From Qipengyuania flava (lineage in GTDB: Bacteria > Pseudomonadota > Alphaproteobacteria > Sphingomonadales > Sphingomonadaceae): DNA of 64,000 nucleotides. Below, piece after piece: positions 26,914 through 38,242 of this stretch. Within the stretch, counting starts at the first letter, position 1. Each line of letters opens with the position of its first letter. The position numbers were made by a program, and so were the translations under genes. The notes under the pieces were generated by a model. It worked only from the letters and a program-made list of their open reading frames with translations, searched no databases and was not told the DNA's origin. The stretch is from NCBI RefSeq assembly GCF_019448255.1, contig NZ_CP080410.1:310001-374000 (forward strand). The letters are read 5' to 3'.

Positions 26914-26948
26914 AAGGGCGGTGCCGGAGCGATCCGGCGCCGCCCTTT
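26914..26948. terminator. Bidirectional terminator between lipoprotein copy 2 and phhA
   Basis: AAGGGCGG-T-GCCGGA (26914-26928) pairs with TCCGGC-G-CCGCCCTT (26933-26947) over a GCGA loop; the plus-strand end is TTT. The convergent genes stop on either side, so it can serve both. Confidence 0.75.
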
Positions 26949-33458: not shown

Positions 33459-33518
33459 GGGACAAGGCTAGGCCGGACCGGCGCGCGCGCAAAGGACCTT
33501 ACGGCGAGGCCGGATTGC

Positions 33519-33544
33519 GGGGCGAGCGGACGTCCGCCCGCCCC
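33519..33544. terminator. 26-bp near-perfect palindrome after the acidic lipoprotein
   Basis: GGGGCG-A-GCGGAC (33519-33531) is followed directly by GTCCGC-C-CGCCCC (33532-33544): 12 of 13 positions pair with no loop. It lies just downstream of the 33551-33847 gene on the minus strand, between it and the next lipoprotein. There is no T-run, so termination would be weak; transcript attenuation or a cruciform is possible. Confidence 0.5.
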
Positions 33545-33550
33545 TGCCGG

Positions 33551-33967: not shown

Positions 33968-35740
33968 ATGAGCGGTACCGTGGGCGCCCTGGAAGCACTC
34001 AAGAGCATATTCGGCTTCGACGCCTTTCGCGGGCGCCAGGCCGATGTGGTTGCGCGCGTGCTCGGCGGGCAATCGACCCTCGCGGTCATGCCAACAGGCG
34101 CCGGCAAGTCGCTCACCTACCAACTGCCTGCGGTGACCTTGCACGGCACCTGCGTCGTCATCAGCCCGCTGATCGCGCTAATGCACGACCAGCTGCGCAG
34201 CGCACGGGCAAACGGCATTCGCGCCGCCACGCTGACCAGCGCGGACGCCGATTGGCGCGAGACGCAGGACGCGTTTCGGGCAGGCGAACTCGATCTTCTT
34301 TATGTCGCGCCCGAACGCGCCAGCCAGCCAGCCTTTCGCGAGTTTCTCACTGCCGCGCCGCTGTGCCTCTTCGCCATCGACGAGGCGCATTGCGTGTCCG
34401 AATGGGGGCATGATTTCCGGCCCGATTACCGGATGCTGCGCGGGTTGCTCGACAGCTTTCCCGGCGTGCCGCGCCTGGCGCTTACCGCGACTGCCGACCG
34501 GCAAACGCGCGCCGATGTCCTGGCCCAGCTCGGCATACCTGAGGACGGGCTGGTGCTGGCCGGGTTCGACCGGCCGAACATCCGCTACGCGATCCGCCAC
34601 CGCGACAACCCGGTGCGCCAGCTCACCAGCCTGATGGCGAGCGAGCCGGGCCCGGGCATCGTCTACGCGCCGACCCGCCGCAAGGTGGAAGACCTCGCCG
34701 ACAAGCTTGCCGCAGCAACCGGTCGCCCCGTGCTGCCCTATCACGCCGGTCTCGATCCCAAGACGCGCGCGGCGAACCAGGCGGCCTTCGTCGCCAGCGA
34801 GGACATGGTGATCGTGGCGACGGTTGCCTTCGGCATGGGCATCGACAAGCCCGATGTGCGCTTTGTCGCCCATGTCGGCGTGCCCAAGTCGATCGAGGGC
34901 TATTACCAGGAAACGGGCCGCGCGGGCCGCGATGGCGACCCGGCGCAGGCGGTGATGTTCTGGGGCGCCGGCGATTTCGCCACCGCGCGCCAGCGGCTGG
35001 CCGAAGTGGACGAGGCCCGGCGCGGGGCCGAACGCGCGCGGCTCGATGCGCTGGCAGGCCTTGTCGAGACCGCCCAGTGCCGCCGCGCGATCCTGCTGCG
35101 CCATTTCGGCGAGGACCCGCCCGGCACCTGCGGCAATTGCGACACCTGTCTCGAGCCACCCGAGGTAACCGACGCCACCGAGCTTGCGCGCAAGCTGCTT
35201 TCGGCGGTTTACCGCACGGGCCAGAGCTTCGGCATGGGCCATTTGCAGAAAGTGCTAACCGGCAGCGAGGACGAACGCGTGCGCCAGCGCGGCCACGATC
35301 GGCTGAGCGTGTTCGGTATTGTCGAGGGCGAGGAGGCGCGCCTGCTCCAGCCCTTGTCGCGCGCGTTGCAGGCGCGCGGTGACCTGGTGGCGACCGAGCA
35401 TGGCGGGCTGGCACTGGGCGGGTCGGCGCGCGAAATCCTCAAGGGCGACAGCGCGGTGGCGATCGTCGTGCCGCCCAAGCGCCAGCGGCGCGGACGCCGC
35501 GGCGACGCGACGCCCAATCCGGTGGGGAATCCGCTGTTCGAGGCCCTGCGCGCGCTGCGCAAGGAGCTGGCCGAAGAAGCGCAGGTCCCGCCCTATGTCA
35601 TCTTCCACGATTCGACCCTGCGCGAGATGACCGAGGCGCGCCCCGCCAGCTTGCGCGAACTGGGCGGCCTGCCCGGTATCGGGGCCAAGAAGCTCGAAGC
35701 CTATGGAGAGCAGTTCCTGCGCGTCATCGGCCAATATTGA
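33968..35740 (+). CDS. recQ: ATP-dependent DNA helicase RecQ
   Basis: A 590-residue 3'-5' DNA helicase. Walker A is MPTGAGKS, the DEAH-box segment is IDEAHCVSEWGHDFRPDY, and motif VI is YYQETGRAGRDG. The zinc-binding cysteines are in CRRAI and CGNCDTC, followed by a winged helix, and the C-terminus has an HRDC-like domain. It functions in recombination and repair of stalled forks. The ATG at 33968 gives a standard RecQ start. Its stop lies within the -35 region of the next promoter. Confidence 0.96.
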   Translation: MSGTVGALEALKSIFGFDAFRGRQADVVARVLGGQSTLAVMPTGAGKSLTYQLPAVTLHGTCVVISPLIALMHDQLRSARANGIRAATLTSADADWRETQDAFRAGELDLLYVAPERASQPAFREFLTAAPLCLFAIDEAHCVSEWGHDFRPDYRMLRGLLDSFPGVPRLALTATADRQTRADVLAQLGIPEDGLVLAGFDRPNIRYAIRHRDNPVRQLTSLMASEPGPGIVYAPTRRKVEDLADKLAAATGRPVLPYHAGLDPKTRAANQAAFVASEDMVIVATVAFGMGIDKPDVRFVAHVGVPKSIEGYYQETGRAGRDGDPAQAVMFWGAGDFATARQRLAEVDEARRGAERARLDALAGLVETAQCRRAILLRHFGEDPPGTCGNCDTCLEPPEVTDATELARKLLSAVYRTGQSFGMGHLQKVLTGSEDERVRQRGHDRLSVFGIVEGEEARLLQPLSRALQARGDLVATEHGGLALGGSAREILKGDSAVAIVVPPKRQRRGRRGDATPNPVGNPLFEALRALRKELAEEAQVPPYVIFHDSTLREMTEARPASLRELGGLPGIGAKKLEAYGEQFLRVIGQY

Positions 35741-35783
35741 CTCTTTCACCCCTGCGATATAAAAGTGATATCACAATTATATC
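35737..35783 (+). promoter_or_regulatory. Promoter with a 28-bp nested palindrome upstream of the SPFH module
   Basis: TTGACT (35737-35742), overlapping the recQ stop, and TATAAA (35758-35763) are a plausible but short-spaced (15-bp) promoter. The palindrome runs 35756-35783: GATATAA-AA-GTGATATCAC-AA-TTATATC, symmetric except for the AA/AA positions, with a perfect 10-bp core GTGATATCAC. It covers the -10 and ends 16 bp before the ATG. The DNA-binding protein encoded two genes later is an obvious candidate for binding it. Confidence 0.65.
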
Positions 35784-35799
35784 GAAAGGAGCGGCGGTG

Positions 35800-36711
35800 A
35801 TGTCGGTCGAACTCAAGGGAATGAAGCGCAGCGAGGAGCGCGCGGGAAACAGCTTCAGCGGCTATCCCATGCTGCTGGCGATCCTGGTGCTGCTGGTTTT
35901 CGTCGTGTGGAACATGACCGGCAATCTGCCGCCCGACGGGGCGGAGAAGATCGTCAAGCTGGGCTTCGTCGGCGCGATCGTGCTGCCGATACTGGTGCTC
36001 GCTTTCCTGTCGGCGGGCTTCTTCATGATCCAGCCCAACCAGGCGGCGGTGATTACGCTGTTCGGCGAGTATCGCGGAACCGAGCGCCGCGAAGGCCTTC
36101 GCTGGGTGTGGCCGTGGATGGGCAAGAACAAGATCTCGGTGCGCGCGCACAACATCCATTCCGAGCGGGTGAAGATCAACGATCTGCGCGGCAACCCGAT
36201 CGAGATCGCCTGCAACGTCGTGTGGCGCGTCGCCGATACGGCGCAGGCGAGCTTCGATGTCGACGACTACAAGGAGTTCGTGAACATCCAGATCGAGGCG
36301 GGCCTGCGCACGGTCGGCTCGCGCCATCCCTATGACGATTTCGAGAACGAGGAGGTCACGCTGCGCGGCAGTGCCGACGTCATCAACCGCGAACTGCTCG
36401 AGGAGCTGAACGACCGCCTCAAGGTCGCTGGGATCCTGGTGGACGAGGCAGGGCTCACCCACCTCGCCTATGCCAGCGAGATCGCCAGCGCGATGCTCAA
36501 GCGCCAACAGGCCGATGCGATCATCGCCGCGCGCGCCAAGATCGTGCTCGGCGCGGTCGGCATGGTCGAGGATGCGCTGACCAAGCTGTCGCAGGACGGC
36601 ATTGTCGACATGGACGACGAACGGCGTGCGGCCATGGTCTCGAACCTGATGGTCGTGCTGTGCGGCGACAAGGAAGCGCATCCGGTCGTCAACACCGGTT
36701 CGCTCTACTGA
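35800..36711 (+). CDS. SPFH/Band-7 domain membrane protein
   Basis: A 303-residue prohibitin-like protein. Two hydrophobic segments (about 22-38 and 51-70) precede an SPFH domain with [38 protein letters not shown] and the helical [19 protein letters not shown]. Such proteins organise membrane microdomains and protease complexes. GAAAGGAGCGG precedes the ATG; a GTG one codon upstream is possible. It is the first gene of a three-gene operon. No NfeD partner or protease is adjacent. Confidence 0.92.
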
Positions 36712-36730
36712 CCGAAGCGCAAGCGCTGCC

Positions 36731-36925
36731 ATGAGCAAGAAGAAGGCCTTTGCCCTGCGACTCGATCCGGCGGTCCATGCCGCGGTCGAGCGGCTGGCCG
36801 CGGCCGAATTGCGCAGCGCCAACGCCCAGATCGAAATGCTGCTGCGCGAAGCGCTGGCCAGGCGCAGCATCGACCTGCCGGCCAGCGCGCCGCCCAAGCG
36901 CGGGCGGCCGAAGAAGGGAGACTGA
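36731..36925 (+). CDS. Arc-like ribbon-helix-helix DNA-binding protein
   Basis: A 64-residue protein: FALRLDPAVHAAVERLAAAELRS provides the antiparallel beta strand and first helix of an RHH fold, and NAQIEMLLREALARR the second helix. The basic tail PPKRGRPKKGD is AT-hook-like (RGRP). It is 19 bp downstream of the SPFH gene. As the only DNA-binding protein nearby, it may bind the palindrome in the promoter, although that is untested. No toxin gene accompanies it. Confidence 0.85.
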   Translation: MSKKKAFALRLDPAVHAAVERLAAAELRSANAQIEMLLREALARRSIDLPASAPPKRGRPKKGD

Positions 36926-36926
36926 C

Positions 36927-37193
36927 GTGACCCCTGAGACGCACGACACAGCCTGGTTCGCGCCAAAGCGTTATGGCTACGGATCGGGCCTGCCGATCGC
37001 CTGGCAGGGCTGGGCGCTCATGATCGGGTACGTCCTGGTGGTGATCGCCGCTGCGCAGTTCATCGCCTGGGATGAAGAGGTGGGCTGGATCGCCTTCATC
37101 GCCCTGTTCGTGCCCGCGACCGCCGCCTTTCTCTATATCACCGCGATGAAGACGCGCGGCGGCTGGCGCTGGCGGTGGGGGGAAGAGGACTAG
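36927..37193 (+). CDS. Small two-helix membrane protein
   Basis: An 88-residue protein starting with GTG at 36927, preceded by AAGGGAG. The N-terminal motif FAPKRYGYGSGLPIAWQGW precedes two transmembrane helices (MIGYVLVVIAAAQFI and IAFIALFVPATAAFLYI), and a W/R-rich C-terminus follows. I recall this motif in unnamed bacterial membrane proteins but no named function. The tight spacing (1 nt after the RHH stop) makes it part of the SPFH operon. Confidence 0.78.
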   Translation: MTPETHDTAWFAPKRYGYGSGLPIAWQGWALMIGYVLVVIAAAQFIAWDEEVGWIAFIALFVPATAAFLYITAMKTRGGWRWRWGEED

Positions 37194-37226
37194 CCGGGAC
37201 CTCCCTTGGCTGACCTTAGGCCGTTG

Positions 37227-37234
37227 TTAACCAT
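37227..37234 (+). promoter_or_regulatory. CtrA half-site-like element
   Basis: TTAACCAT matches the 8-bp half-site reported for the alphaproteobacterial cell-cycle regulator CtrA. It lies 22 bp before the beta-helix protein start, in a 62-bp gap. Chance occurrence cannot be excluded. Confidence 0.25.
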
Positions 37235-37255
37235 AAGCCCCTAGGGTTTCGGGCC

Positions 37256-38242
37256 ATGGTATCGCCTTTCGCCCTTCCTGCCTCGCGCCTGCCTCGCTGG
37301 CTGCTCGCCGGTGTGGCCGTGATGGCGGTAGGCGCGATTCCGGTCGCGGCCCTCCTCGCACAAGGCTCTGGCCCCGCCAGCTTCACCGTTGCCGAGACCG
37401 GCCGGGGTTACGCATCGTTGCAGGCGGCTGTCGATGCGATCGGCAACCGCGAAGGCACGGTCCTGATCGCTCCCGGCAACTGGAACGAATGCGCCGTCCA
37501 GCGCGAAGGTGTCGTCCACTTCCGTGCGGTCGAGGCCGGCACGGCACTGCTTGGGGGCAAGGCCTGCGAAGGCAAGGCCGCGCTCGTCCTGCGTGGCCGC
37601 GGCGCCAGCGTCGAAGGGATCGTTTTCGCCGATCTTGCGGTCGATGATGGCAATGGCGCGGGCATTCGGCTCGAAGAAGGCCCCTTGCGCGTCTCGCAAA
37701 GCTGGTTCCGCGACAGCCAGCAAGGCATCATGACCACCAACGGCGAGAACAGCGAACTTCTCGTCGACAAATCGACCTTCACCCGGCTCGGCACCTGCGA
37801 AAACTCGGCAGGCTGTGCGCATTCGATCTACGCAGGCGACTATGGCCGCGTCACGGTCACCCGCAGCCGTTTCGAACAGGGCAAGGGCGGGCACTATCTC
37901 AAGTCGCGCGCAGCGCATATCGTGGTTGAGGATTGCAGCTTCGACGACGCCAACGGGCGCGGCACGAACTATCTCATCGACCTGCCCAACGGCGGCACCG
38001 GGATCATCCGCGGCAACTGGTTCGTCCAGGGCCGGGACAAGGAAAACTGGTCGACCATGATCGCCATTGGCGCGGAAGGCGCGCGCTACACTTCCGACGG
38101 TCTCGTCATCGCGGAGAACGACGCGCGCATGGTGCCAGGATTGTCGCGCAGCCCGGCCTTTGTCGCCGACTGGACCGGCGATGCGCTGGTCTTCGGCGAG
38201 AACGCGCTGGGCGAAGGCGTCAGGCGTTTCGAGCGCCGCTGA
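37256..38242 (+). CDS. Secreted right-handed parallel beta-helix protein
   Basis: A 328-residue exported protein with an N-terminal hydrophobic helix (LLAGVAVMAVGAIPVAALLA) and repeated short strands such as GTVLIAPGNW, VEGIVFADL, RVSQSWFRD, VTVTRSRF and IVVEDCSF, typical of pectate-lyase-like right-handed beta-helices. No polysaccharide lyase active-site set was recognised, so it may bind or modify glycans. Its last 23 nt overlap the convergent GNAT gene. The start at 37256 is an ATG with a TTAACCAT element upstream. Confidence 0.82.
   Translation: MVSPFALPASRLPRWLLAGVAVMAVGAIPVAALLAQGSGPASFTVAETGRGYASLQAAVDAIGNREGTVLIAPGNWNECAVQREGVVHFRAVEAGTALLGGKACEGKAALVLRGRGASVEGIVFADLAVDDGNGAGIRLEEGPLRVSQSWFRDSQQGIMTTNGENSELLVDKSTFTRLGTCENSAGCAHSIYAGDYGRVTVTRSRFEQGKGGHYLKSRAAHIVVEDCSFDDANGRGTNYLIDLPNGGTGIIRGNWFVQGRDKENWSTMIAIGAEGARYTSDGLVIAENDARMVPGLSRSPAFVADWTGDALVFGENALGEGVRRFERR

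Follow-up and report, generated by a model that had tools for sequence, protein, structure and literature searches.

The 28-bp element GATATAAAAGTGATATCACAATTATATC (positions 35756 to 35783) precedes a gene for an SPFH/Band 7 protein in the stretch of Qipengyuania flava DNA analyzed here, which is 64,000 nucleotides long and is referred to below as the window. Sequence comparison indicates that the element is very probably the operator of a dedicated Arc-like autorepressor of the SPFH operon, the ribbon-helix-helix (RHH) protein encoded by the operon's second gene. Autorepression by RHH proteins is already known, as is the role of SPFH proteins in organizing bacterial membranes; to our knowledge, little is known about the control of most bacterial SPFH genes. 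A private regulator would offer a route to the signal that induces SPFH scaffolds, and one 64-residue protein with one 28-bp site makes a ready assay.

A three-box element upstream of the SPFH gene

The location and sequence of the element, together with its perfect 10-bp core (GTGATATCAC, 35765 to 35774), were correctly given in the original prediction. Its symmetry had been put at 26 of 28 positions; a recount gave 24, both AA/AA spacer pairs being asymmetric. Two further 28-mers of the window, both GC-rich (26917 to 26944 and 33518 to 33545), also reach 24 of 28. Symmetry alone is therefore unconvincing and not beyond chance, and the proof of the element lies in its conservation. Its composition is more distinctive. 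The element is 21% GC, compared with 66% for the window, and only 6 of the 63,973 window 28-mers are equally AT-rich, every one of them overlapping it. The full 28-bp pattern was found in none of 100 shuffles with up to three mismatches allowed.

Alignment of 117 loci on the site gave the consensus GATATAAATATGATATCATAATTATATC and revealed that information is concentrated within the 28 bp. Outside them, there is a conserved pyrimidine at position -1, and a purine-rich stretch 3' of the site fits a ribosome-binding site. The architecture is GATATA-N5-GATATC-N5-TATATC, with neighboring boxes 11 bp apart (Table 1). Within the central box, positions 11, 12, 14, and 15 (G, A, A, and T, respectively) are invariant in the 117 loci; T at position 13 was found in 116 and C at position 16 in 114. 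The full three-box site, at one mismatch or fewer, was present in 98 of 170 loci from the family of Q. flava (the own family below) compared with 2 of 40 outside it. The right box is mostly gone in named Novosphingobium loci (e.g., GATATTAATATGATATCAG), and the left box is lost instead in some loci (L052, L057, and L058); of 169 own-family loci, 69 are changed only in the right box and 11 only in the left. Two perfect boxes, GATATC-N5-GATATC, are a common form outside the own family. Because either outer box can be lost and two-box forms are common, the conserved unit is one box per helical turn and not a long palindrome. The nested 28-bp palindrome originally described is thus a conserved element, but it is better read as a three-box array, of which two boxes are enough in most relatives. 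One variant array (GCGATCAAAGTGATATCATTTTGATCGC, at L245) has both outer boxes departing together from GATATC.

Table 1. Features of the SPFH-RHH locus (window coordinates)
Feature	Position	Strand	Basis or remark
-35-like TTGACT	35737..35742	+	Overlaps the end of recQ; TTG kept in 102/117 loci
Predicted 28-bp operator, three 6-bp boxes at 11-bp pitch	35756..35783	.	Sequence, conservation
Left box GATATA	35756..35761	+	First five positions G/A/T/A/T in 91-97% of the 117 loci
Candidate -10 TATAAA, within the left box	35758..35763	+	Sequence
Central box GATATC	35767..35772	.	Alignment of 117 loci
Right box TATATC	35778..35783	-	Least conserved of the three boxes
Shine-Dalgarno-like AAAGGAG	35785..35791	+	Sequence
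SPFH/Band 7 protein, 303 aa	35800..36711	+	PF01145, E = 1.7e-23
RHH (Arc-like) protein, 64 aa, C-terminal RGRP AT-hook-like tail; proposed autorepressor	36731..36925	+	Arc profile match
Small membrane-like protein, 88 aa, GTG start, third gene	36927..37193	+	No Pfam match

The palindrome had also been said to overlap a TATAAA -10. The hexamer does lie inside the left box, and its use as the -10 of the SPFH operon is plausible rather than shown, because a strict sigma-70 scan of 35600 to 37300 returned no promoter. TTGACT (35737 to 35742) ends 15 bp 5' of TATAAA and is separated from the element by 13 bp; the element in turn ends 16 bp 5' of the SPFH ATG (35800). In the 102 loci that keep TTG, it is found at -19 or -18 relative to the left box, and 72 of these have TTGACN.

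The core was found once in the 2.85-Mb genome, as was the full 28-bp site with up to three mismatches allowed. Exact two-box matches in this genome were only the two overlapping pairs of the site itself; single-mismatch two-box matches exist elsewhere. A genome-wide regulon is not supported, given that the exact matches are confined to the 28-bp site.

The first product of the operon scores 84 bits against PF01145 (cut-off, 23.6) and has a weak prohibitin match among solved structures. It falls far below the NCBIfam equivalog cut-offs for HflK and HflC (22.2 versus 159.4 and 19.7 versus 134.4, respectively). RecQ is encoded upstream of SPFH, and a beta-helix protein was also among the scanned neighbors. 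The 88-aa third gene was not detected beside the SPFH-RHH pair in many relatives. At five loci (L137, L138, L139, L147, and L164) it is displaced downstream by about 1 kb relative to its place in the window, suggesting that an insertion separates it from the RHH gene. At another locus (L035, genome G103), the SPFH match is split into two overlapping segments that lie in different reading frames, and one of them contains an in-frame TGA, indicating either a broken gene or a sequencing error; the site and the RHH gene are retained there.

Conservation of the site and its linkage to the RHH gene

Among 296 genomes of the order, 146 encode the RHH protein and 145 the SPFH protein; SPFH occurs without RHH in G234, and RHH occurs without SPFH in G236 and G237. 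The RHH profile returned 11 matches in 337 genomes of the class and 53 in 398 genomes of the phylum, and the SPFH search was positive in 44 of 396 phylum genomes. Loci were taken from 100 of the SPFH-bearing genomes of the order (145 in all), and further loci came from 20 additional RHH places and the best 80 of 128 named relatives. An RHH gene is present at 210 of 214 unique SPFH loci.

Two boxes were called at no more than one mismatch in 11 specified bases. Such a pair lies 5' of SPFH in 200 of the 210 RHH-linked unique loci, a count that overstates independence since the loci are related by descent, and it occurred in 10 of 1,070 shuffled upstream regions. Conservation upstream of orthologous SPFH genes, on which the original prediction had staked itself, was therefore observed. 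No mismatch was seen in 178 of the 210 loci, one in 22, two in 6, three in 1, and four or more in 3; the two-box site was found in 169 of 170 own-family loci and in 31 of 40 outside. Exact boxes occurred at a pitch of 11 bp in 178 of 210 loci, and at every other pitch from 6 to 23 bp in at most 1. The misses were L245, L251, L281, L282, L284, and L285, with two mismatches; L287, with three; and L106, L107, and L109, with at least four. Of these, L109 is degraded, related boxes occur at a 10-bp pitch at L107, and no boxes were found at L106. Upstream regions were set from the estimated SPFH start and widened where the match began late; some of the misses are start errors, and a few matches may sit further upstream than a promoter should. 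One locus that was initially missed (L108) had a perfect site once the start was moved.

Within the genus, 22 of 37 genomes carry the 28-bp site at up to three mismatches, once each, and all 22 sites precede SPFH and then RHH. Of the other 15 genomes, 7 have neither SPFH (at E = 1e-30) nor the 28-bp site at up to three mismatches. The other eight carry SPFH together with an exact two-box site in the stretch retrieved, the outer or right box being changed (L024, L030, L032, L033, L034, L266, L267, and L268). A three-mismatch match in a different family (L002, in G054) was taken as chance, with no SPFH or RHH match within its 3 kb.

The same box and 11-bp pitch, present in Sphingomonadales, recur in other classes of Pseudomonadota, in a clostridium, and in Bacteroidota; such persistence is unusual for an operator because operators normally drift fast. 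An RHH-linked locus of Acetoanaerobium (Clostridia) has GATATCATTATGATATC after TTGACA, about 240 bp 5' of the likely ATG. The three Bacteroidota records with the site, all RHH linked, are from Phocaeicola (GATATCAAAATAATATC), Prevotella (GATATTAAAATGATATT), and Parabacteroides (AATATCAAATTAATATC). Weaker versions were found in Deinococcus NW-56 and QL22 (two mismatches each) and in Nonomuraea, which has a 16-bp palindrome, AAAGTGATATCACTTT. Plasmid loci of alphaproteobacteria show one box (Bosea) or GATATC boxes that are not at pitch 11 (Rhizobium, L287).

Of the SPFH loci that lack an RHH gene, nine could be assessed (L083, L283, L289, L290, L291, L292, L294, L295, and L298, with 98% identity between L289 and L294), and the array was absent upstream in all of them. 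Searched with a profile, these nine loci yielded no RHH frame, whereas each of nine positive controls did. Within the own family, L083 provides the contrast, with SPFH and neither RHH nor site; within Deinococcus, L283 and L298 lack both, whereas L281 and L282 have RHH and a two-mismatch site. Fisher's test of 202 of 212 loci with the gene (L297 and L299 added) against 0 of 9 without it gave P = 3e-11 for loci that are non-independent. L194 has the array on a contig that ends inside SPFH and was left out of this judgment. Two of the SPFH-only carriers, L294 and L295, are unverified wastewater contigs labeled as phage of Enterococcus and Listeria, and they may represent host DNA; the stretch that L294 resembles (L289) belongs to a P. 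aeruginosa plasmid record.

None of 11 scored RHH-like genes without SPFH has the site. The exact array was not found in loci L131 to L134, and no array within two mismatches was found in the 200 bp upstream at L255, L256, or L259 to L262; L257 and L258 were unscored, the RHH-like gene not having been located. The own-family genome G237 encodes an RHH orthologue (L300, 2037 to 2240) that is 53% identical, has the RGRP tail, and is followed by the 88-aa gene, and there is no SPFH gene and no array at zero or one mismatch in the 2.9 kb around it. The site therefore follows the SPFH-RHH pair, and the regulator can persist without it, a case that slightly lowers confidence in the operator assignment. 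G237 has one exact two-box match elsewhere, overlapping the start of a lipoprotein-like gene; this is about chance level, because one exact match is likewise present in G001, a genome without SPFH, and the G237 match may be due to chance.

The RHH protein and its predicted mode of action

A profile of 33 RHH homologues matched structures of the Arc repressor (1u9p, E = 1.4e-6; 1arq, E = 0.0035), by which measure the RHH protein is related to Arc. The protein itself scores below the Pfam cut-off for Arc (PF03869; 14.3 versus 20.4 bits). An RSxN motif is present in 164 of 165 RHH sequences. The AlphaFold monomer (mean pLDDT, 81) has helices at residues 13 to 25 and 30 to 44 and no strand, and the proteins matched to it by Foldseek include FitA, Arc, and AmrZ, at weak E-values (0.6 or worse). 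The profile relationship to Arc, together with the way the site tracks the RHH gene (200 of 210 loci with it, 0 of 9 without), favors the protein as the binder, the candidacy originally put forward.

Further inspection of the primary structure revealed an AT-hook-like tail, KRGRPKK, at the C terminus. RGRP or KGRP, which we take to be the AT-hook core, was found in 115 of 121 order-level RHH sequences; the six without it are L069 and the loci of other families, L104 to L108. Outside the own family, the tail was seen in 1 of 44 sequences (Nonomuraea), a set that includes L104 to L108 and L230, the last being a second copy of L105. The tail may contact the AT-rich spacers. Its association with the three-box site counts as a single event because it is confined to one clade, and the tail alone was rejected as the cause of the third box, since many own-family loci keep the tail without that box. 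No paper pairing ribbon-helix-helix with AT-hook was found in the open-licence collection searched.

RHH dimers read a short box through a beta-ribbon. Here, one dimer would occupy each GATATC-like 6-bp box by this means, and the three boxes at 11 bp would place three dimers on one DNA face across the probable -10 region; autorepression is therefore predicted. Since the boxes probably cover the -10 region, the bound array would exclude RNA polymerase, and the operon would thus limit its own transcription. It is in this sense that we infer binding, cooperativity, and repression at the site. The occurrence of one site per same-genus genome makes the protein look like a private regulator.

The site might instead be bound by another regulator, global or encoded elsewhere, to which the RHH gene is a mere neighbor. 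Several regulator families can use palindromes of 17 to 28 bp, and the RHH orthologue of G237 persists without SPFH or site. This reading leaves unexplained, however, why the site is missing from all nine SPFH loci without an RHH gene and, for a separate global regulator, why there is one site per same-genus genome. The size and pitch of the boxes also suit RHH dimers, and we consider such a regulator unlikely. The palindrome could also act at the RNA level, with translation or termination controlled by a hairpin formed in the SPFH leader. Folding of this 50-nt leader gives -13.7 kcal/mol (z = -3.1), and the 28-mer alone has a z of -3.5, but the pattern of substitution in 169 own-family loci argues against a stem. 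Each of the seven outer-arm pairs shows one-sided changes in 21 to 69 loci, whereas six of the pairs have 0 compensated changes and the seventh has 8. Moreover, a -10 in the left box would leave the full element untranscribed. With one-sided changes dominating and no compensation at six of seven outer pairs, the hairpin was rejected as highly improbable.

A further reading takes the RHH protein for a HicB-like antitoxin and SPFH for its toxin, with type II-style autoregulation, and is compatible with autorepression. The two-gene order is fixed, and a Qipengyuania citrea plasmid record (L280, 2438 to 2629), in which the RHH gene lies beside SPFH and a hypothetical protein, names the product "toxin-antitoxin system HicB family antitoxin." However, the protein is below the cut-offs of HicB (20 versus 21 bits) and other antitoxin Pfam models, no HicA match was found among the scanned neighbors (SPFH, the 88-aa protein, the beta-helix protein, and RecQ), and nine loci retain SPFH without RHH. 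We know of no SPFH protein that acts as a toxin. The HicB identity was rejected on the missed cut-off and the lack of HicA among the scanned neighbors, and the reading as a whole is very unlikely. The name in the Q. citrea record is probably misleading, which suggests that HicB antitoxin annotations of the SPFH-linked regulator merit correction.

A broader scheme can be tentatively drawn, which we regard as possible but doubtful. SPFH-RHH would be an ancient two-gene membrane-homeostasis circuit, present in several phyla, with a dedicated Arc-like repressor acting on no operon but its own SPFH scaffold operon, at a nearly invariant GATATC array; the SPFH assembly itself would sense the state of the membrane and release or titrate the repressor. 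In the own family, an AT-hook tail would have been gained and the operator extended from two to three boxes.

Comparison with known systems

Conserved operon partners are described for three of twelve prokaryotic SPFH subfamilies in the main text of Hinderhofer 2009 (PMC2636767), from which the terms "ribbon-helix-helix," "CopG," and "arc" are absent. The SPFH/Band 7 domain is common to the present protein, the NfeD-linked SPFH subfamilies, and HflK/HflC; the partner here is an RHH regulator and not NfeD. A 2026 paper deals with SPFH in P. aeruginosa (PMC13086221, excerpt). Neither the SPFH-RHH pair nor its operator appeared among the literature matches listed, which comprised titles and the beginnings of abstracts from an open-licence collection with most subscription journals missing.

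The arrangement of the site recalls RelB at relO, where, according to the excerpted text of PMC2812701, 6-bp repeats are bound by two dimers on the same DNA face and spacing is essential for cooperativity. Autorepressing antitoxins of this type share with the present locus 6-bp repeats and a two-gene operon under autoregulation, which is proposed here. The same excerpt describes relO as four hexads with no spacer tolerated between half-sites, whereas the boxes here are N5 spaced. RelB-type systems differ further in that no toxin gene was recognized at the SPFH-RHH locus.

The best profile relative with a solved structure is P22 Arc, and an F-x-L-R strand and RSVN motif are common to both proteins. 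The binding proposed for the RHH protein is Arc-like, with dimers on adjacent half-sites on one DNA face, and the spacing in the Arc operator is about one helical turn. Arc half-sites are of the TAGA type, unlike the GATATC box found here. In Arc, Gln9 and Asn11 contact bases; in the profile alignment, the RHH protein has Ala and Ala/Pro at these positions. Unlike Arc, most own-family RHH proteins carry the AT-hook-like tail, and their partner gene encodes an SPFH protein, whereas the partners of Arc are phage genes.
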